Shown here in pieces: positions 1 through 6,146 of a stretch of 6,146 nucleotides of DNA (within the stretch, counting starts at the first letter, position 1; each line of letters opens with the position of its first letter). The notes below the pieces were generated by a model, which saw nothing but the letters and a program-made list of their open reading frames with translations, was not told the origin of the DNA and did no database searches. The stretch is taken from assembly GCA_016928975.1 (NCBI GenBank), contig JAFGJR010000003.1, positions 1 through 6,146 of the forward strand, read 5' to 3'. This stretch comes from Sedimentisphaerales bacterium (GTDB taxonomy: Bacteria; Planctomycetota; Phycisphaerae; Sedimentisphaerales; SG8-4). The position numbers and the translations under genes are program-made.

Positions 1-41
1 CATAGTTCATAATACCCAAGTCAGCCCAGCGACTGAACCGC

Positions 42-302
42 TTGGCCGACGGCTGTAGTTGTCCAATTCCCGCTGAACCAACACACTTCCTACCGCCTAT
101 CACTCTGGACCGGGCGCTGCCTCAGATAGTCGGAGTCCTCCGGTCCGGCCAGATGAAGGAGGCACAGCGTGATGCTATCAAAGAACTGGGCCTGGGTATG
201 CCTGACCAGTTCATCATGGAACTCGTGACGGGTTTCTCAGCATCGTCGGCTCTGGATGGTCGGATAGCCGCGATGAGCCCCGCAGTCGACCAGGCACAGT
301 GA
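42..302 (+). CDS. small hypothetical protein, uncertain
   Basis: An open frame of 86 codons starting at TTG (CTG at 33 is an alternative in the same frame, just after an in-frame TAG at 3-5). I recognise no family. The middle and C-terminal half (residues about 27-86) reads like an ordinary soluble protein, with a probable amphipathic helix around GQMKEAQRDAIKEL, while the first 25 residues are proline- and cysteine-rich and less convincing. No membrane segment, signal peptide or clear ribosome binding site is visible. The weak start, and a stop so close upstream, also fit the 3' remnant of a decayed gene. It ends about 190 bases before the next gene, in the same direction. Real or not is undecided. 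Confidence 0.35.
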   Translation: MADGCSCPIPAEPTHFLPPITLDRALPQIVGVLRSGQMKEAQRDAIKELGLGMPDQFIMELVTGFSASSALDGRIAAMSPAVDQAQ

Positions 303-379
303 TAGAATATCTTATCCCGCGTGAGGCTTCAGATGGCAGGCCGAGGGATGTCGCACCCGAAGCCAGTGAAGAAATACTG

Positions 380-408
380 TTGCATTGTAGGTCCCACGTT
401 AGTAAAAT
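380..408 (+). promoter_or_regulatory. candidate sigma70-type promoter for the beta-helix gene
   Basis: TTGCAT at 380-385 and TAAAAT at 403-408 are separated by 17 bases. The -10 box matches five of six consensus positions and the -35 box three of six. A start near 415 would give a leader of about 80 bases before the ATG at 495. This is a pattern match only. Confidence 0.3.
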
Positions 409-482
409 GGATAATCAGAGAGCCATTGGAAGCCCGAGCATCTATGGCGGCGGGCTTCATAGCGAGGATAGTCAATAATGAC

Positions 483-491
483 GGAGGAAGG
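483..491 (+). promoter_or_regulatory. ribosome binding site that sets the start at 495
   Basis: GGAGGAAGG is a strong Shine-Dalgarno sequence; its GGAGG core (483-487) lies 7 bases before the ATG at 495 and 10 before a second in-frame ATG at 498. It argues against the longer reading from GTG at 321, which would put 58 non-typical residues in front of the signal peptide. Confidence 0.65.
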
Positions 492-494
492 CTT

Positions 495-2186
495 ATGATG
501 TCGCAAGAGAAGACGCTTCCGTCCTGGCAGAGGATACTACTGACGGCGCACCTGCGCGTCCGACTCGCGGTTTTGGTTGCGATGTTCGCGGCAATATTGT
601 TCCAGACAGCGAAGGCGGACTCCATCCGGGTAATCCATGTGGATATGGCTGCTTCAGGGGCAAATGACGGTTCGTCCTGGGCGAATGCACACACGTACCT
701 TTGGGATGCCCTGGCGAATGCAAATAGGTTGCGATCGGGTCGTGTTTCTCGATCTCCCGTGGAAATCCGTGTCGCCCGTGGCGTCTATCGGCCCGATAGA
801 AGCTCAGACCATCCTTTCGGGACTGGGGATCGAGAAGCCACTTTCTATCTTCGCGACGACTTGAGCCTCCTAGGTGGCTTTGCCGGCGCGGGTGCGTCTG
901 ACCCTAATAGCAGGGACATCGTCTCGTATGAGACGGTTCTCAGCGGGGATCTGGCGGGGGATGATGTCGCCGTCGCCGATCCGTGCGACCTGCTCACCGA
1001 GCCGACGCGGAAGGAGAACAGCTACGCCATCGTGACCGCAGGCATCTGCTCCAGGTCCGCCGTCCTGGATGGATTCACTATTCGTGCCGGGTACGCTGAG
1101 AGACTCGATTTGTCCGGAGGGGCGGGATTGTCTCTGTATTCGTCGAGCCGCGACGCACCCTGCTGCCCATCAATAAGGAACTGCACATTCATGGGCAATG
1201 CCGCTCACACCGCCGGCGCAATCCGTGTGACGAGCGCTCGCCCCGAGTTGGTCAACTGTTCCTTCCTCCAGAACGCCGGTATCGTAGGAGGTGCGATCTG
1301 GTGTCAACCCTCGCGCATCGGGACACCCAAGGTTTGTGAGTTTGTGATCAGGGGATGTACGTTTGCGGATAACTACGCCAGGGATACCGGAGGTGCCATA
1401 CACATTGACTATACTAATCCACCGACAATAGAGGACAGTCTGTTCACCAGGAACTCCGCCAAAGTAGGCGGTGCCATATATGTGCGCACACTTGAAACAG
1501 TGAACATGGCAAACTGCCGCCTCATCGGCAACAAGGCCAGCGAAGCCGGTGCAGCTGTCTGCTTTGACGGAACGGAGTTGAGCATGACTTCTTGTACCAT
1601 CTCCGGCAATCTGGCTCCGGTTGGGGGAGCCCTTGCTCGCCTGGAACTGGTGCAGGAGAGTCTACAGGCCGTTCTGGTAAGCATCGTCAACACGATCCTC
1701 TGGAGTGGAGACAACCAAATCCACGTCGGCGAAGGCATCCATATGAACGTCATGCACAGTGACATCTGCGGTGGATGGCCGGGCAAGGATAATCTCAACG
1801 CCGATCCCCTTTTCGCGAATCCGGGCTACTGGGACCCGAATGGGACCCTGGATGATCCCAACGATGATTTCTGGGTCGATGGCGATTACCACTTGAAGTC
1901 CCAGGGTGGGCGGTGGGACCCAGTCAGCCGAAGCTGGGTAAAGGATGATGTGGCAAGTCCTTGCATCGACGCGGGGGACCCGAATAGCCCTGTCGGGGAG
2001 GAGCCGTTCCCCAACGGCGGGCGGGTCAATATGGGCGCTTACGGCGGGACTGCCGAGGCGAGCAAGTCCTATTTCGGCGAGCCGGTGTGTGAGACGATCA
2101 TCGCCGGCGACATCAACGGCGACTGCATCGTCGATCTGAAGGACCTGGCCCTCCTGACCGAGCACTGGCTCGCTGCCTCCGACTGA
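495..2186 (+). CDS. secreted right-handed beta-helix protein with C-terminal dockerin-like motif
   Basis: 563 residues from the ATG at 495, chosen because GGAGG lies 7 bases upstream and a signal peptide follows at once. Residues 1-41 form the export signal: a basic N-region, a hydrophobic core (LAVLVAMFAAILF) and a likely cleavage after TAKA. Next comes a cap region seen in planctomycete beta-helix proteins (ANDGSSWANA, then ARGVYRPD, then ETVLSGDLAGDD). About six helix coils follow at roughly 230-385, each with an FxxN/CTFxxN strand and a GGAI/GGAL turn, reminiscent of chlamydial Pmp repeats. Residues 436-525 carry the ADPLFANPG, CIDAGDPNSP and NMGAYGGTAEAS blocks typical of the C-terminal end of this family. 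The last 25 residues hold one calcium-loop half of a dockerin (GDINGD, with Asp539, Asn541, Asp543, Asp547, Asp550). A complete type I dockerin has two such loops. Role inferred: extracellular polysaccharide binding or cleavage, or a surface protein; no catalytic residues are identifiable. It is probably transcribed alone, since about 200 bases separate it from hemL. Confidence 0.87.
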   Translation: MMSQEKTLPSWQRILLTAHLRVRLAVLVAMFAAILFQTAKADSIRVIHVDMAASGANDGSSWANAHTYLWDALANANRLRSGRVSRSPVEIRVARGVYRPDRSSDHPFGTGDREATFYLRDDLSLLGGFAGAGASDPNSRDIVSYETVLSGDLAGDDVAVADPCDLLTEPTRKENSYAIVTAGICSRSAVLDGFTIRAGYAERLDLSGGAGLSLYSSSRDAPCCPSIRNCTFMGNAAHTAGAIRVTSARPELVNCSFLQNAGIVGGAIWCQPSRIGTPKVCEFVIRGCTFADNYARDTGGAIHIDYTNPPTIEDSLFTRNSAKVGGAIYVRTLETVNMANCRLIGNKASEAGAAVCFDGTELSMTSCTISGNLAPVGGALARLELVQESLQAVLVSIVNTILWSGDNQIHVGEGIHMNVMHSDICGGWPGKDNLNADPLFANPGYWDPNGTLDDPNDDFWVDGDYHLKSQGGRWDPVSRSWVKDDVASPCIDAGDPNSPVGEEPFPNGGRVNMGAYGGTAEASKSYFGEPVCETIIAGDINGDCIVDLKDLALLTEHWLAASD

Positions 2187-2350
2187 GACGCATGGCGACA
2201 GTGAATTCCGGACGGGAGGGTGCGACAGCGAAGCCGGCCTTCGGGAACAGGAGGAACCATATTCGACCCAAAGGACCGATATTGCCTGGGAATCGAACGT
2301 ATGGCGACCTCTGCGGACTTCCACGTGGCCGGTGTAGGTGTACAATTGGT

Positions 2351-2379
2351 TTGCGGGCTCTTGCGTCCGTGCGTATCAT
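2351..2379 (+). promoter_or_regulatory. candidate promoter for hemL, implying a nearly leaderless mRNA
   Basis: TTGCGG at 2351-2356 and TATCAT at 2374-2379 are 17 bases apart. The first purine at a suitable distance downstream of the -10 box, after the A at 2381, is the A of the hemL ATG at 2388. No Shine-Dalgarno sequence lies before that ATG (the preceding bases are GATTCCTC), which fits a leaderless transcript. A second -10-like box, TACAAT at 2341-2346, would give a leader of about 35 bases but has a poor -35. The rest of 2187-2350 shows nothing I can name. Confidence 0.28.
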
Positions 2380-2387
2380 GATTCCTC

Positions 2388-3704
2388 ATGCACGAGAGAT
2401 CTATCGATGCCTTTGCACAGGCCTGCCGGTACATGCCGGGCGGGGTGAACTCGCCCGTCCGGGCCTTCGGCGGCGTGATCGGTGGAGACGCAAGATCTTG
2501 CGTCTCTACACCTCTGTTCATCGCTTCGGCCAAAGGGTCCAGGATCTTCGATATCGACGGCAACGAGTACATCGATTATGTCGGGTCGTGGGGCCCGATG
2601 ATCCTGGGCCATGCCCACCCGGCGGTGATCGCCGCCATTCGCGCGGCCGCCGAGAAGGGGGCCTCGTTCGGTGCTCCCACGCTGGCCGAGACAGAGCTGG
2701 CTACGCGCATCGTCGGGGCTTTTCATTCCATCGAGAAACTCCGATTGCTCAGTAGCGGGACCGAGGCGGTGATGACGGCCATTCGCTTGGCGCGCGCCCA
2801 TACCGGCCGGGACCTGATCGTCAAGATGGCCGGTTGCTATCACGGCCACAGCGATTCGCTTCTGGCCCAGGCCGGCTCGGGTCTGGCTGAGCGGGGCGTC
2901 GCCGCCAGTCCCGGAGTCCCGGACGCTCTCGCCAACCTTACGGTCGTCCTTCCTTACAACGATATCGAGGTGGTTCGGCAGGCGTTCGGCAAGCACAAGG
3001 GCCGGATCGCCGCCGTGCTGGTCGAGCCTGTGGCTGCCAACATGGGGCTCGTGCCGCCCGTGCCGGGCTATCTTGAGCAGATGCGCCGCCTGTGCGATGA
3101 GAATGGCTCCGTGCTGATCTTCGATGAAGTGATCACGGGCTTCCGCGTCGCATTCGGCGGAGCCCAGGATCGCTACGGCGTCCGGTCCGATCTCACGTGT
3201 CTTGGCAAGATCGTCGGCGGAGGCTTGCCCCTGGCTGTCTGTGGGGGTCGGGCTGAGATCATGGACCTTCTCGCGCCCGTGGGCCGGGTGTATCAGGCCG
3301 GCACTCTGAGCGGCAATCCCATCGCAACCGCCGCCGCGATTGCGACACTGGAGGTCCTTGCCGAGGGGCGATGCTACCGCGAGCTGGAATCCGCCGGTGC
3401 GAACCTGGAGGCCGGTCTGGCACAGGCTGCCTCCGAGGCCGGCGTGCCTATCACCATCACTCGCGTCGGCTCCCTCCTGAGCTGCTTCTTTGCGGACAGC
3501 AGCGTACGGGACTTCGATGATGTGAGAGCGACCGATATCGCCACCTTCAAGAGGTTCTTCGCCGAGATGCTGCGGCGAGGCATCTACCTGGCTCCGAGCG
3601 CCTACGAGGCCATGTTCCTGTCGCTCGCTCACACGAAGGCGGACATTGAGCGAACGGTCGAGGCCGCCGCGGAGAGCTTCCGGGCGATAGCAGGGAAGAA
3701 ATAG
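2388..3704 (+). CDS. hemL: glutamate-1-semialdehyde 2,1-aminomutase
   Basis: 438 residues, full length (the E. coli enzyme is about 426). It converts glutamate-1-semialdehyde to 5-aminolevulinate in the cytoplasm, the last step of the C5 route to haem and other tetrapyrroles, after glutamyl-tRNA reductase. It is a fold-type I, PLP-dependent class III aminotransferase. Visible signatures: PGGVNSPVRAF near the N-terminus (17-27), YVGSWGPMILGHAHP (64-78), SSGTEAVMTAIRLAR (122-136), CYHGHSDSLL (150-159), the cofactor Asp in FDEVITGFR (245-253), the Schiff-base lysine Lys274 in CLGKIVGGGLPL, and GTLSGNP (305-311). The ATG at 2388 gives the usual spacing to the GGVNSPVRAF block but has no Shine-Dalgarno. 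Oddity: between GV and TPLF (residues 31-40), where relatives I recall have about GVGGTPLF, there are some eight extra residues encoded by a 28-bp palindrome. The gene ends 14 bases before the next one, so they are probably co-transcribed. Confidence 0.97.
   Translation: MHERSIDAFAQACRYMPGGVNSPVRAFGGVIGGDARSCVSTPLFIASAKGSRIFDIDGNEYIDYVGSWGPMILGHAHPAVIAAIRAAAEKGASFGAPTLAETELATRIVGAFHSIEKLRLLSSGTEAVMTAIRLARAHTGRDLIVKMAGCYHGHSDSLLAQAGSGLAERGVAASPGVPDALANLTVVLPYNDIEVVRQAFGKHKGRIAAVLVEPVAANMGLVPPVPGYLEQMRRLCDENGSVLIFDEVITGFRVAFGGAQDRYGVRSDLTCLGKIVGGGLPLAVCGGRAEIMDLLAPVGRVYQAGTLSGNPIATAAAIATLEVLAEGRCYRELESAGANLEAGLAQAASEAGVPITITRVGSLLSCFFADSSVRDFDDVRATDIATFKRFFAEMLRRGIYLAPSAYEAMFLSLAHTKADIERTVEAAAESFRAIAGKK
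2482..2509. repeat. palindromic element in frame within hemL
   Basis: Positions 2485-2506 are a perfect 22-bp palindrome: half-site GAGACGCAAGA followed by its exact reverse complement TCTTGCGTCTC. One mismatched pair (2484/2507) is followed by two more matching pairs, extending it to 28 bp. It encodes GGDARSCVST (residues 32-41) and coincides with a stretch that seems extra in HemL. Its outer part, GT(A)GAGACGC...GCGTCTCTAC, resembles small palindromic repeats that I recall from cyanobacteria and other bacteria; that comparison is from memory. It is likely an inserted mini-element kept because it preserves the frame. Confidence 0.85.
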
Positions 3705-3736
3705 GACGCGTAGGACTCATGGGACCAATAGGACCT
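3701..3736 (+). repeat. four 9-bp tandem units across the hemL stop and the next start
   Basis: The units ATAGGACGC, GTAGGACTC, ATGGGACCA and ATAGGACCT run in register, consensus RTRGGACNN. The first contains the hemL TAG (3702-3704) and the third begins with the ATG (3719) of the following gene, so the first residues of that protein (MGPIGP) are encoded by repeat sequence. Confidence 0.7.
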
Positions 3737-4852
3737 GTGATTGGGATCATTCTGTTGGGCGCTGTCCAAGTGGCTGCTCCGAAAGACGTGCCGGATGTGC
3801 TGGGTGTCACGCATGTGGCGGGTCGGTACTGCCTCACCGACAAGGACTTCCTCAACGAGGGCGCCGACCAGATCCTGTCCCTGGGCTCGCGGGTTATCAA
3901 GGTGTGGTTCTACGGCAAACGCCACGAGCCTCCGATGGCCATGTACCCCTACAACTCGCACTGGCCCAACGTCGATTCGCTCGTCGAGGGCGCCAGGATT
4001 GCGTACTTCAAGCGACTGTTCGGCAAGCCGTTCACCACGTACGTCATGGTCGTTACCTCGCTGGGTCGCGATGACGGCTACTGGCGAAAAGGCATCACCG
4101 AGGAGCAGAAACGCGACGAGCAGCGTCAGTTCTACGAGTTGGCCAGATACCTGCTAACGGGGTACAAGAGCACGGGAAAGACCTTCGTCCTCCAGCACTG
4201 GGAAGGCGACTGGATGGCCCGCGGCAACTTCGACGCCAAGACCGAGCCGACGGCGCTGGCATTGGCGAGCATGATCGAGTGGCTCAACGCCCGTCAGGCG
4301 GGAGTCAATCAAGCCCGTCAGGAAGTGGGGGAGCAGGGCGTGCACGTGTATCATGCCGCCGAGGTCAACCTCGTGGTCCAGTCGATGCGCGACGGGGTCG
4401 CCGGCGTGGTCAACAAGGTTCTGCCGTATACGCACCTGGATCTTGTCTCTTACTCCGCATGGGACTCCGCCACCTCGCACTACGCCGACCCGAACGTTCT
4501 GCGGCATGCTCTGGACTTCATTGCGGTTAACGCCCCCGATAGTGCCGCCTTTGGCAACCACAACGTCTATCTCGGCGAGTTCGGCATGCCGGAGAACAAC
4601 TACACCCTTGCCCAGATTCAGACGGCCATCCCGAACGCCGTGCAGACCGGCCTCAAGTGGGGCTGTCCCTACATCGTCTATTGGCAGCTCTACTGCAACG
4701 AGCTGAAAGACCCCAAGACCCAACCGCCCGTGAAGACCAACGACGCGGTCCGAGGCTTCTGGCTCATCCGCCCCGACGGCACGAAGTCCTGGGTGTGGGA
4801 CTACTTCCACGGCCTGCTCACCGCTGGCCCCGCCTTGCCGGCGTCGAACTGA
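3719..4852 (+). CDS. exported TIM-barrel protein, glycoside hydrolase-like
   Basis: 377 residues. The ATG at 3719 is the only sensible start, since the next in-frame ATG lies some 70 codons on, inside the conserved body; the preceding TAGGAC is at best a weak ribosome binding site. Residues 1-20 (IGIILLGAVQVAA core) look like a short signal peptide lacking the usual basic residues. The body reads like a (beta/alpha)8 barrel of glycoside hydrolase clan A: SRVIKVWFYGKR (strand 2 region), TYVMVVTSLG, FVLQHWEGDW with Glu162 as candidate acid/base, LDLVSYSAWDS, YLGEFGMPEN with Glu287 as candidate nucleophile, and YIVYWQLYCNE with Trp322 in the strand-8 position. The usual Asn-Glu pair before the acid/base is replaced by Trp-Glu, so I cannot assign a GH family or a substrate. 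No dockerin or binding module is attached. It follows hemL by 14 bases, yet no metabolic link between the two is evident. Alternative: a catalytically inactive barrel. Confidence 0.82.
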   Translation: MGPIGPVIGIILLGAVQVAAPKDVPDVLGVTHVAGRYCLTDKDFLNEGADQILSLGSRVIKVWFYGKRHEPPMAMYPYNSHWPNVDSLVEGARIAYFKRLFGKPFTTYVMVVTSLGRDDGYWRKGITEEQKRDEQRQFYELARYLLTGYKSTGKTFVLQHWEGDWMARGNFDAKTEPTALALASMIEWLNARQAGVNQARQEVGEQGVHVYHAAEVNLVVQSMRDGVAGVVNKVLPYTHLDLVSYSAWDSATSHYADPNVLRHALDFIAVNAPDSAAFGNHNVYLGEFGMPENNYTLAQIQTAIPNAVQTGLKWGCPYIVYWQLYCNELKDPKTQPPVKTNDAVRGFWLIRPDGTKSWVWDYFHGLLTAGPALPASN

Positions 4853-5009
4853 GAGCGATCCATCGCCCGCCCGGAGCGAATTGGCTTTGTTTTCACGCAA
4901 GCACCAATCGCCCTTGGAATCTCTATGTCTTTTGTTGACAGACATTTATCGCATAGTCCACCTCCTGACGAATTGGCTTTGTTTGAAGCACCCGACGTTG
5001 TTCGTAGTG

Positions 5010-5023
5010 ACGCCGTAAGGCGT
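5010..5023. repeat. short hairpin in spacer 2
   Basis: ACGCC and GGCGT flank a GTAA loop, a perfect 5-bp stem. It lies in TTCGTAGTGACGCCGTAAGG, which resembles a dispersed GTTCGTAGT-type hairpin repeat I recall from other bacterial genomes. Confidence 0.55.
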
Positions 5024-5098
5024 TCTCGTGGCGAAGGTGTCCCGCCCTCGTCCTCTGCCACGAATTGGCTTTGTTTGCAACGGGTGCCCGCTCCTCAG

Positions 5099-5132
5099 TC
5101 CGCAATCCGCGATCGACAATCCGCAATCCCCC
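5099..5132. repeat. 7-bp tandem tract, TCCGCAA type
   Basis: The heptamers TCCGCAA, TCCGCGA, TCGACAA, TCCGCAA and a last divergent unit TCCCCC run in register and end at the fourth motif copy (5133). Confidence 0.8.
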
Positions 5133-5195
5133 GATTGGCTTTGTTTGACGCCCGGCCCTGTGACTGGAGTTGCCGCCGACGCCATGTGGTCTTCT

Positions 5196-5219
5196 CCAGA
5201 CGTCCCAGACCTCCCAGAT
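5196..5219. repeat. 9-bp tandem tract, CCAGACNTC type
   Basis: CCAGACGTC, CCAGACCTC and a truncated CCAGATT follow each other and fuse into the fifth motif copy, which begins at 5218 with ATTTGG. Confidence 0.75.
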
Positions 5220-5231
5220 TTGGCTTTGTTT

Positions 5232-5348
5232 GACGCGCCGGCCGGCGGATGTCATTGCCGCGAAGCTTGTCCTCGGCCTGATCGAGGAGCGGGAATCCAG
5301 GAGCCCATCGATCGTTCAGACCCCGCGGGCTTGTCCTGAGCCCAGGCA
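5232..5348. repeat. duplicated 117-bp spacer, copy A
   Basis: This spacer is the same length as, and roughly three-quarters identical to, 5586-5702, with two compensating single-base indels. Shared blocks include GCCGGCC, GGATGTC, AGCTTG, GGAATCCAGGA and CCCATCG. Inside is a hairpin: ATTGCCGC (5254-5261) pairs with GCGGGAAT (5289-5296) with one mismatch, and CCTCG (5271-5275) with CGAGG (5283-5287). On the minus strand it reads CTGGATTCCCGC..., like a widespread small bacterial hairpin repeat (recalled, not checked). Confidence 0.85.
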
Positions 5349-5461
5349 AATTGGCTTTGTTTGACGCCCACGACAGAAGTCGCGAAGTCAGGTTTCGACC
5401 CGCGTTTCTGGGACAACACCAAGGATCAGGTCGGCTGACCCGGACTTTTGTCGGGCGCGTC

Positions 5462-5477
5462 TTGTTTCGCACGCCGG
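5462..5477. repeat. decayed tenth motif copy (right half only)
   Basis: TTGTTTCGCACGCCGG is identical over 16 bases to 5580-5595, which spans the right half of the seventh motif and its downstream flank. The left half (ATTGGCT) is not recognisable here. It would divide the longest spacer (5363-5571) into two of more typical size. Confidence 0.7.
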
Positions 5478-5493
5478 ATCAGCCCCAATGTAG

Positions 5494-5534
5494 CCCAGCC
5501 GCCCTCGGCTGGGTCACCCCCGAGGGCGGGGGTG
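5494..5534. repeat. nested, mutually exclusive hairpins
   Basis: CCCAGCCG (5494-5501) pairs perfectly with CGGCTGGG (5506-5513) around a CCCT loop, and CACCCCC (5515-5521) with GGGGGTG (5528-5534). Alternatively CCGCCCTCGG (5499-5508) pairs perfectly with CCGAGGGCGG (5520-5529), which would break both. No T-tract follows, so it is not a plain intrinsic terminator. Confidence 0.8.
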
Positions 5535-5536
5535 CC

Positions 5537-5571
5537 ACTTGAAACTTCACACTTCCAACTTGAGACTCTAC
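5537..5571. repeat. 7-bp tandem tract, ACTTSAN type
   Basis: Five heptamers in register, ACTTGAA, ACTTCAC, ACTTCCA, ACTTGAG and ACTCTAC, end exactly one base before the seventh ATTGG motif (5573). Confidence 0.85.
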
Positions 5572-5585
5572 CATTGGCTTTGTTT

Positions 5586-5702
5586 CGCACGCCGGCCTGG
5601 GATGTCGTTCCCGCGGAGCTTGCCCTCGACCAGATCGGGGAGCCGGAATCCAGGAACCCATCGTTTGTTCCAGTCCCACAGGGTCTATCCTGGGCCCGAG
5701 CG
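5586..5702. repeat. duplicated 117-bp spacer, copy B
   Basis: Partner of 5232-5348, also bounded by motif copies on both sides (131-bp start-to-start in both cases). The inner stem is kept as CCTCG/CGGGG with one G-T wobble, and the outer stem as GTTCCCGC/GCCGGAAT with one mismatch and one wobble. Base changes between copies therefore leave the fold possible. Confidence 0.85.
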
Positions 5703-5735
5703 AATTGGCTTTGTTTCGCAGAACCACCGTGCCAG

Positions 5736-5762
5736 TCTTCAATCCGCATGCCGCACTCCTCC
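5736..5762. repeat. 7-bp tandem tract, degenerate TCCGCAA type
   Basis: TCTTCAA, TCCGCAT, GCCGCAC and TCCTCC(G) are in register, preceded by CAG as in the tract at 5099, and end at the ninth motif copy (5763). Confidence 0.65.
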
Positions 5763-5792
5763 GATTGGCTTTGTTTCGCAGAATGGCTTCCC

Positions 5793-5875
5793 ACCACGGA
5801 GACGCGGTGGCCACGGAGAATGAAACCGGCACATGCGGATCATTCTCGTCTCCGCGAACTCCATGTCTCGGTGGT
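5793..5875. repeat. long imperfect inverted repeat
   Basis: The left arm 5793-5823 (ACCACGGAGACGCGG... ending GGAGAATGA) matches the reverse complement of the right arm 5840-5875 (TCATTCTCGTCTCCGCG... ending CTCGGTGGT), with a few mismatches and a small gap. The 16-base loop is 5824-5839. It looks like a short non-autonomous hairpin element of the ACCACGGAGACACGG type seen in many environmental genomes (recalled). No coding capacity. Confidence 0.75.
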
Positions 5876-5936
5876 AGATTTCTCCGCTGGCCATGAAAGG
5901 ACCCTCCGAACTCGGGTCTATCGTTCGTTATTCAGT

Positions 5937-5953
5937 TGTATGGTAATCATACA
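5937..5953. promoter_or_regulatory. operator-like palindrome
   Basis: TGTATG and CATACA are perfect 6-bp inverted arms around GTAAT, in a locally AT-richer segment about 165 bases before the possible gene start at 6116. Shape and spacing suit a dimeric repressor site, but no regulator is in the window. Confidence 0.3.
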
Positions 5954-6002
5954 GCAACAGGTATTCTCTGTCAAGGGAAATCCAGCCAAATGACGTAGTT
6001 CT

Positions 6003-6030
6003 TTGACACAGATAAACCCTTGCGAAGAAT
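6003..6030 (+). promoter_or_regulatory. candidate promoter upstream of the 3' partial gene
   Basis: A perfect -35 box TTGACA (6003-6008) and AAGAAT (6025-6030, four of six) are 16 bases apart. A start near 6037 would give a leader of about 80 bases containing the hairpin at 6061-6103. Confidence 0.3.
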
Positions 6031-6060
6031 GCACTTACAGCCACAGAGGTCACAGAGCCC

Positions 6061-6103
6061 CCATCGCGGCCTCGCTGCGCTCGGCCGCAACCAAAAGCGA
6101 TGG
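6061..6103. repeat. inverted repeat in the presumed leader
   Basis: CCATCGC (6061-6067) is repeated inverted as GCGATGG (6097-6103), and inside it GCGGCC (6066-6071) pairs with GGCCGC (6083-6088) around an 11-base loop. The two stems overlap by two bases. The right arm reaches into the GGAGAG that would be the next ribosome binding site (6102-6107), so pairing could partly hide it. Confidence 0.45.
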
Positions 6104-6115
6104 AGAGCTTTGGCG

Positions 6116-6146
6116 ATGAGAAGGTATAGTAGCATCCTCGTGGATA
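6116..6146 (+). CDS. possible start of a gene running off the window
   Basis: ATG at 6116 opens a frame reading MRRYSSILVD that stays open to the end of the window. GGAGAG at 6102-6107 is a fair ribosome binding site eight bases upstream. The basic residues followed by a hydrophobic turn could begin an export signal. Only ten codons are visible, so no family can be given. Confidence 0.4.
   Translation, partial: MRRYSSILVD

Follow-up and report, generated by a model that had tools for sequence, protein, structure and literature searches.

Miniature inverted-repeat transposable elements (MITEs) are dispersed, non-autonomous, and non-coding, with a possible helper gene elsewhere, and are defined by terminal inverted repeats, usually accompanied by target duplications. 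In clustered regularly interspaced short palindromic repeat (CRISPR) arrays, repeats measure ~23 to 50 nucleotides (nt) and spacers are near-constant in length and unique in content, and copies of DNA uptake or Chi-type motifs are scattered singly over the genome. The BOX elements of Streptococcus pneumoniae (boxA-boxB-boxC) are presented in the excerpted text of PMC3049150 as short, dispersed intergenic repeats of modular build, with inner modules that vary in number, a presumed mobilization in trans, terminal inverted repeats, and predicted stem-loops. Repetitive extragenic palindromic (REP) sequences of the GTAG/CGTC type are short extragenic repeats, often clustered, with Planctomycetes included (PMC3733652, in excerpt). 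Here, we describe an array in a 6,146-nt stretch of DNA from a Sedimentisphaerales bacterium (contig JAFGJR010000003.1, positions 1 to 6,146; hereafter the window), in which a 12-nt tag recurs nine times behind a gene. The array is probably a stack in which dispersed repeats, short, modular, non-coding, and mobile or recently mobile in the lineage, follow one another head to tail. The tag is the usual boundary of the units, and the modules are common to distant loci; the stacks have a single orientation and a single polarity, and a given stack is missing behind the same gene in relatives.

A 12-nt tag recurs nine times in one orientation

An exact-match scan of the window located the 12-mer TTGGCTTTGTTT nine times on the + strand, at 4881-5776, and not once on the minus strand, in agreement with the same-orientation repeat described in the initial annotation. 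Throughout, the tag is given in its minus-strand form, AAACAAAGCCAA, with the gene at 3719-4852 lying on its 3′ side. The exact-match copies are as follows.

4881..4892, minus strand: tag copy 1, 3′-most in the AAACAAAGCCAA direction, 28 nt past the stop codon that closes the 3719-4852 gene
4973..4984, minus strand: tag copy 2
5065..5076, minus strand: tag copy 3
5135..5146, minus strand: tag copy 4
5220..5231, minus strand: tag copy 5, preceded by T on the + strand and not a full 13-mer
5351..5362, minus strand: tag copy 6
5574..5585, minus strand: tag copy 7
5705..5716, minus strand: tag copy 8
5765..5776, minus strand: tag copy 9, 5′-most in the AAACAAAGCCAA direction, with TGCG just ahead of it

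A rescan of the window with up to 2 mismatches yielded no match beyond the nine. Chance had been dismissed as an explanation, and our figures agree: 200 dinucleotide shuffles, scored at up to 2 mismatches, gave a mean of 0.17 copies and a maximum of 2 versus nine observed, and base composition predicts 0.0003 exact copies over both strands. Nine copies had also been claimed for the 13-mer ATTGGCTTTGTTT, which in fact occurs eight times because T precedes the copy at 5220 (A precedes 8 of the 9 12-mers). The spacers between the 12-mers measure 80, 80, 58, 73, 119, 211, 119, and 48 nt. Their variable length, as first reported, is borne out (48 to 211 nt), but their contents are not all unrelated, since 5220-5362 and 5574-5716 share 80.6% identity over 144 nt. 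A CRISPR array, doubted from the start, was ruled out by tag length (12 to 13 nt), by the wide spacer range, and by the recurrence of spacers at other loci; cas families were absent from the eight open reading frames (ORFs) of this 6-kb window scanned with Pfam. Like CRISPR and integron arrays, the array is oriented and joins constant to variable parts; it differs from them in the short tag, in spacers that range from 0 to 299 nt over 367 units, in apparently non-coding modules, and in module families repeated genome-wide.

Tagged arrays are dispersed through planctomycete genomes

Contigs of species-level genomes were scanned for two tags 40 to 70 nt apart, which gave at least 120 loci. Among the 120 listed, 107 bear planctomycete titles, and the tag lies on a single strand in 119, the exception (L109) being two separate arrays; six of the 13 loci with other titles (L011, L030, L055, L067, L090, and L107) are simple tandem repeats by eye. 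Genome-wide counts had been proposed as a refuting test of the array. In array-bearing genomes, they proved far above those of a reversed-pattern control: 294 versus 0 in G004, 209 versus 1 in G003, 82 versus 1 in G001, 45 versus 0 in G002, and 24 versus 0 in G005. Two Acidobacteria gave 32 versus 0 (G007) and 21 versus 0 (G006), with copies partly clustered. Within the class, 67 of 150 genomes carry any tag copy; in the family of G004, 55 of 60 do (range, 0 to 294; control, 0 to 4), and three genomes of one genus hold 209, 28, and 1 copies.

Orientation, the other test proposed, is balanced genome-wide and uniform within clusters, with no mixed cluster among 25 in G003 and 25 in G001 (0/50 in total). 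We followed clustering in 100 of the 209 copies of G003, 99 of which lie in its 25 clusters, and in all 82 copies of G001, 58 of which lie in its 25. Spacing between tags peaks at 63 to 65 and 88 to 91 nt in G003 and at 51 to 53 nt in G001. Such clustering differs from the single, scattered copies of DNA uptake or Chi-type motifs. The tag differs from REP sequences as well: AAACAAAGCCAAT is 12 to 13 nt long, non-palindromic, and without GTAG/CGTC, and all 50 of the 50 clusters run head to tail. These data placed the window array within a repeat system that is dispersed through planctomycete genomes and found in two Acidobacteria too.

Carriage on phages or plasmids was considered and rejected: neither collection returned a match, and all five hits to viral contigs are simple tandem repeats with periods of 24 to 30 nt. 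In the acidobacterium G007 (L254, L255, L256, L258, L008, and L038), a conserved TTTAGAATGAGTAACTTAACTCAAAAATGG-like stretch precedes several tags, unlike in planctomycete units. A Chloroflexi-labelled contig carries three tags with a common left flank (L094, 6837-7030, reverse complement), and it may reflect either the system in a further phylum or an error of binning.

The tag is conserved while modules diverge

Group analyses covered 105 loci in 18 groups, namely 99 of the 120 listed loci, five further loci, and the window. Eight planctomycete-titled loci were left out (L035, L043, L044, L075, L086, L101, L105, and L114), seven of which, all except L101, served as held-out material for a sequence profile described below; the flank comparison took in acidobacterial loci too. 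Inside the arrays, exact tags number 385 and one-mismatch tags 125; in 71 of the latter, the mismatch is the same G-to-C change, which gives a frequent alternative form, AAACAAACCCAA. This C form is commoner at the outer end (26/83 first sites, 44/267 middle sites, and 14/83 last sites). The opposite strand inside the arrays holds no exact tag.

To related units located by their modules alone, an exact tag adjoins on the right in 163 of 228 cases and on the left in 177 of 282, where module divergence (15.5% and 14.4%, respectively) would leave an expectation of 17% and 21%; the scoring accepted both tag forms and offsets of as much as 3 nt, and the window was left out. Control windows placed 40 nt inside and scored with equal leniency held 2 tags in 228. 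The remaining 170 sites comprise 61 with 1 to 3 mismatches and 109 with at least 4, that is, tagless. Per-base change thus amounts to ~2% in tags with up to 3 mismatches, a cut-off that favours low values, versus ~15% in modules, and the tag evolves several times more slowly than the modules.

The same difference in rate is what one would expect if selection acted on the tag as a site bound by protein or RNA (a motif for regulation, the nucleoid, or uptake), with passive spacers in between, and the arrays do lie close to gene borders. We nevertheless consider such a site an unlikely explanation: the spacers are repeat families that end at the tag and have preferred lengths, arrays are missing in relatives, and copy numbers range from 1 to 209 within a genus.

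Where, then, do the relatives of a unit lie? Among units with a detectable relative, counted in 7 of the 18 groups, the best partner sits at another locus for 44/59 units in B3_Pla, 25/41 in LacPavin, 44/45 in FKSedi, 14/16 in Zod683, 14/16 in UBA9295, 15/16 in bin164, and 13/15 in Zod1213. Same-locus partners number 1/45 in FKSedi (3.7 expected), 2/16 in Zod683 (2.6), 2/16 in UBA9295 (1.8), 1/16 in bin164 (1.2), and 2/15 in Zod1213 (1.2); the figures for B3_Pla and LacPavin are taken up below.

Units are composed of alternative modules

Several module classes recur. One consists of ~77- to 80-nt modules with a patchy core (GNAA...AAAGG..TTATG), another of 51- to 52-nt modules made of degenerate 7-nt repeats, and a third of 40-nt modules in bin164 and its relatives; further repeats exist besides. 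By eye, several modules are degenerate 7-nt repeats (CGTATTG, AACTACGA). Their likeness is to the heptamer (STRR) repeats of cyanobacteria, from which they differ in lying within tagged units. Different classes alternate within single arrays.

Full units are displayed by the many solitary elements of the small genome G201. In order, the unit runs from an outer part ending in ATTATGCAAAACRAACCCAATTTCC through a core and an inner module, for which several alternatives exist, to a 3′ end, AAAACAAACCCAAACAAAGCCAATTTTA. The 3′ end forms an abrupt boundary to unique DNA, with AATTTTA as the last seven bases in 14 of 20, and the outer ends are conserved rather than ragged. Single elements have the tag at both ends as a direct repeat. 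Past the 3′ end at four G201 loci (L174, L179, L181, and L190) we observed a further module, which is an inverted repeat (AATTTTA..TAAAATT) and at three of these loci comes with CCTGAGC..GTCGAAGGG-like boilerplate; at one locus, this module is missing from the G153 counterpart.

In organization, BOX elements are the closest described system. The likeness lies in the modular, composite build, with alternative modules at corresponding positions in G201 and mixed classes in arrays. The ends here, however, are direct copies of the tag instead of terminal inverted repeats, many unrelated modules go with one tag, the 80-nt class has no consensus stem-loop, and the hairpin of the 40-nt class is weakly supported, so that by structure these units fall outside the BOX type.

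For the 80-nt class, 56 of the 367 units were selected by length and core pattern; the two window units among them were then dropped for the fold test and the profile, leaving 54. A profile of the 54 matched held-out genomes (L043, E = 3.5e-7; L075, 7.9e-7; L086, 1.4e-4; L105, 4.5e-4), and three loci taken as controls (L157, L160, and L161) match it and have tags. Homology of acidobacterial units to the planctomycete core was not detected (best E, 4.6 for G007-type and 1.2 for G006-type loci). A protein-coding core was considered given visible in-frame similarity, and was rejected because frames shift between units and variable positions are unlike third positions, as judged by eye. A structured RNA core likewise found no support in the fold test, which gave no consensus fold for the 54 modules (alifold energy, 0.0; mean z, -0.22). 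For the 40-nt class, alifold returned a consensus hairpin that beats all 100 column shuffles, with weak pair statistics (37/500 shuffles reach the paired percentage and 25/500 the covariation score), and therefore we built no conclusion on it. Known RNA families in seven array loci were limited to 6S RNA, tRNA, and a sub-threshold group II match, all outside the arrays by coordinates. The last is a group II intron D1-D4 match at L066 1055-1173 (36.4 bits; cut-off, 49).

A hairpin of this kind bears on single-strand transposition of units in trans by an HUH/Y1 (RAYT-like) enzyme. Y1_Tnp matches occur in all 21 family genomes with at least 20 tag copies, although also in 50 of the 60 overall and hence non-specifically; this is also the likeness to REP systems, in which Y1 (RAYT) transposases figure. 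CGTC, the tag of one REP superfamily, precedes three of the nine window tags and not the other six, which may be chance. Given the lack of a consensus fold in the 80-nt class, the weak covariation of the 40-nt hairpin, a partial rank correlation of 0.26 with copy number, and the lack of a Y1_Tnp match in G173 (12 copies), transposition of this type is the least probable of the explanations considered, and we regard it as very unlikely.

Modules joined at a tag would also be expected of site-specific cassette joining, in which the 12-mer would serve a recombinase as the junction between modules, circular or linear, in the manner of integron attC sites, and oriented stacks would result. It fits the single orientation, the tag at most junctions, and the heterogeneous modules from a genome-wide pool. 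The modules, though, are short and apparently non-coding, and in some loci, such as L043, the tag forms on either side of a module differ, which is unexpected from simple one-tag exchange; we therefore hold this scheme to be quite improbable. The initial annotation had suggested either selection on the motif or a cassette-joining site. Both ideas fit the later evidence, with binding and recombination putative.

Arrays are polar and often end in tandem 10-mers

ORF neighbours were assigned by a simple rule (at least 150 amino acids [aa], no gene caller), and a neighbour was present inside the locus on the right in 88 of 99 arrays and on the left in 62. On the 3′ side, over 99 arrays, the ORF lies at a median of 208 bp when co-directional (start) and 96 bp when convergent (end), and on the 5′ side it is ~640 bp away in both orientations. 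Tandem 10-mers of the CAAAGCCAAA type occur at 46 of 137 last sites, 28 of 328 middle sites, and 1 of 137 first sites. Leaving out G201, where all 19 of 19 last sites have them, the counts become 27/118, 28/327, and 1/118. These results showed that the arrays are polar, with the 3′ end in the AAACAAAGCCAA direction near a gene, often with tandem 10-mers. The window is consistent with this polarity in that its array begins 28 nt from the stop codon on the gene side; its own last site is without a 10-mer tail.

Some retroposon tails resemble such 10-mers at a fixed end, and we therefore considered target-primed, SINE-like (short interspersed nuclear element-like) retroposition, in which an RNA with a 10-mer tail would be primed at a tag already in place and turned into DNA, template slippage would produce the 10-mers, and template switching the mosaics. 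The I element and UnaL2, from the eukaryotic long and short interspersed nuclear elements (LINE/SINE), have a fixed 3′ end with tandem short repeats, and LINE tails such as that of UnaL2 are thought to slip likewise (PMC3747384, in excerpt). Here, too, we found a fixed 3′ end with a slippage-type tail mainly there, together with the sharp right boundary in G201, where 14 of 20 right ends read AATTTTA, mosaic modules, and no inverted terminal repeats. Those elements are, in contrast, eukaryotic and dependent on reverse transcriptase (RT), and RVT_1 is unmatched in 5 of the 21 genomes with at least 20 copies (G174, G177, G193, G203, and G204), where drafts may be incomplete and only the RVT_1 family was scored. 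The outer ends in G201 are not ragged, and 91 of 118 last sites outside G201 are tailless. In our estimate, retroposition has a small chance of being correct.

RVT_1 matches were found in 26 of the 60 family genomes. As drivers of copy number, RT and the Y1 transposase were both rejected, the rank correlations of 0.34 and 0.35 dropping to 0.19 and 0.26 once genome size was taken into account.

Arrays are missing behind the same genes in relatives

The window's two genes are also neighbours in several related genomes. Over 1.4 to 2.8 kb past the 3719-4852 orthologue, the tag was absent at up to 2 mismatches in six relatives (G235, G232, G004, G184, G234, and G188), including G004, which has 294 copies elsewhere. 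Of eight orthologous loci, this count leaves out L271 and L272, contigs that end 21 and 401 bases past the aligned part and are tagless too. An array of G190 is missing in G211 and G212 (2/2; the G213 contig ends there), and for a G201 element situated after a stop codon, no tag lies behind the gene in G210 and G153 (2/2). At another locus, G201 and G153 each bear an element at the corresponding gene end; the modules differ between the two.

Compared with MITEs, neither terminal inverted repeats nor target duplications were seen in the units, where no alignable empty site was found past the gene ends. Within window positions 4500-6146, we found two inverted pairs only (15 and 19 nt; 87% and 79%), neither of them at unit ends.

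Three other features were observed. At a place corresponding to window position 4336, the orthologues in L267 and L266 (G004 and G232) contain extra hairpin-rich repeats of the TGTCGCGGGC...GCCCGCG type, ~60 and 205 nt long and inside the coding region at an equal place, reminiscent of gene-inserting repeats. At L273 8176-8210, a ~33-nt repeat with many 89 to 97% matches in G211, G212, and G213 lies between G190 aligned stretches that are 88 nt apart (32 nt apart in G212). A stretch of ~560 bp at L113 7434-7995 has at least ~40 matches in each of the genus mates G180 and G209 and is probably part of a large gene family.

Anatomy of the window array

The features of the window around and within the array are as follows.

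3719..4852, + strand: neighbour gene of 377 aa with the array at its 3′ end, no Pfam match
4853..4880, no strand: short leader between stop codon and array
5220..5362, minus strand: module bounded by tag copies 5 and 6, both included, sister of 5574..5716
5538..5597, minus strand: stretch of 7-nt-repeat type (AACTTCA/CACTTCC-like, periodicity judged by eye) with tag and flank, 80% like L103 of the metagenome-assembled genome (MAG) LacPavin
5574..5716, minus strand: module between tag copies 7 and 8, with both tags; 5603-5656 is 82% like planctomycete locus L064
5764..5824, minus strand: tag copy 9 and outer flank (CACGGAG-type repeat), 78 to 79% like LacPavin L087 and L001

Matches of 78 to 93% to loci of MAG LacPavin, MAG FK_Sedi, and others cover further parts of the array as well as its outer flank. 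The stretch 5764-5824, on the side away from the gene at 3719-4852, reads as an outer module; repeats of the CACAGAG/CACGGAG type lie on this far side, and the TGCG flank of copy 9 is found too at LacPavin, FK_Sedi, and Bryobacterales copies. The pair 5220-5362 and 5574-5716 is a local, non-adjacent duplicate. The array had been called non-coding, and this is supported, short of proof, by the ORFs checked: four of the array-overlapping ORFs, when scanned, had no Pfam match at E = 0.001, and ORF 5426-5797 on the minus strand, the sole array ORF searched against proteins, had no homologue at E = 0.001. Rfam gave no match in the window.

Upstream of the 377-aa ORF lies a class-III aminotransferase gene (2388-3704; Aminotran_3, Pfam). 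A beta-helix protein is encoded at 321-2186 (Beta_helix and Chlam_PMP, Pfam), with a C-terminal DINGDCIVDLKDL stretch that is dockerin-like by eye.

Probable stacking of units and the points that weigh against it

Each unit of such a stack would consist of one module, mostly ~40 to 210 nt, that comes from a common genomic pool and has AAACAAAGCCAAT(T) as its boundary. A trans-acting activity may add them, with the tag as recognition or priming sequence; every addition would remake the tag, which would keep it near-invariant while modules drift, and local tandem duplication would supply more copies. The 3′ end in the AAACAAAGCCAA direction, by the gene, is probably fixed and the outer side variable.

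Several observations weigh against a mobile, stacked repeat. The compared loci were mostly fetched for holding the tag, and tag scoring was lenient. Copy numbers are at control level (0 to 2 copies) in 137 of the 150 genomes of the class, and 24 of the 82 G001 copies are solitary. The 80-nt core is unrecognizable in the window units (best profile E, 0.26, outside the array). Neither RVT_1 nor Y1_Tnp tracks copy number closely after genome size. The module difference between G201 and G153 could also stem from homologous recombination that exchanged modules. An empty site at strain level was not seen; regions past orthologous gene ends are unalignable, and precise unit-by-unit insertion is therefore putative. 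Finally, same-locus best partners are in excess in B3_Pla (15/59, 4.0 expected) and LacPavin (16/41, 3.6 expected); local duplication thus occurs, yet most relatives lie elsewhere.

This excess, the tandem 10-mers, and near-identical neighbours in L024 and L093 would also be expected if a few old repeats had simply duplicated in tandem and slipped locally, with decay besides. As the whole explanation, this is nonetheless improbable, since each of the seven genomes tested has most of its best partners at other loci, a single array can alternate between module classes, and the tag is kept above the expectation from module divergence.

Returning to stacks of modular dispersed repeats, we propose, as a tentative and still doubtful extension, that an undescribed DNA-assembly activity of Planctomycetota and some Acidobacteria might append short non-coding modules one-way at the 12-nt tag by gene ends. 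Growth would proceed from a fixed, slippage-prone end through templated synthesis or tag-specific joining, as a bacterial counterpart of SINE-like retroposition or as cassette capture without coding cassettes.

The open-access literature yielded no account of the tag or of such arrays, most subscription papers being outside its coverage; among the matches listed for the 12-mer string in either orientation, all look unrelated in the excerpts given. The finding is genuine, widespread, and out of the ordinary: these are modular, dispersed repeats of intergenic DNA whose polarity is clear and whose tag is unusually conserved. If our reading is right, a common stock of modules, assembled at one conserved 12-nt tag, makes up much of the intergenic DNA in array-bearing planctomycetes. 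Non-coding DNA would then have a further mode of movement, one with inherent polarity, and the tag would be a concrete bait for finding the responsible enzyme. The arrays thus point to an undescribed way for bacteria to string small DNA pieces together.

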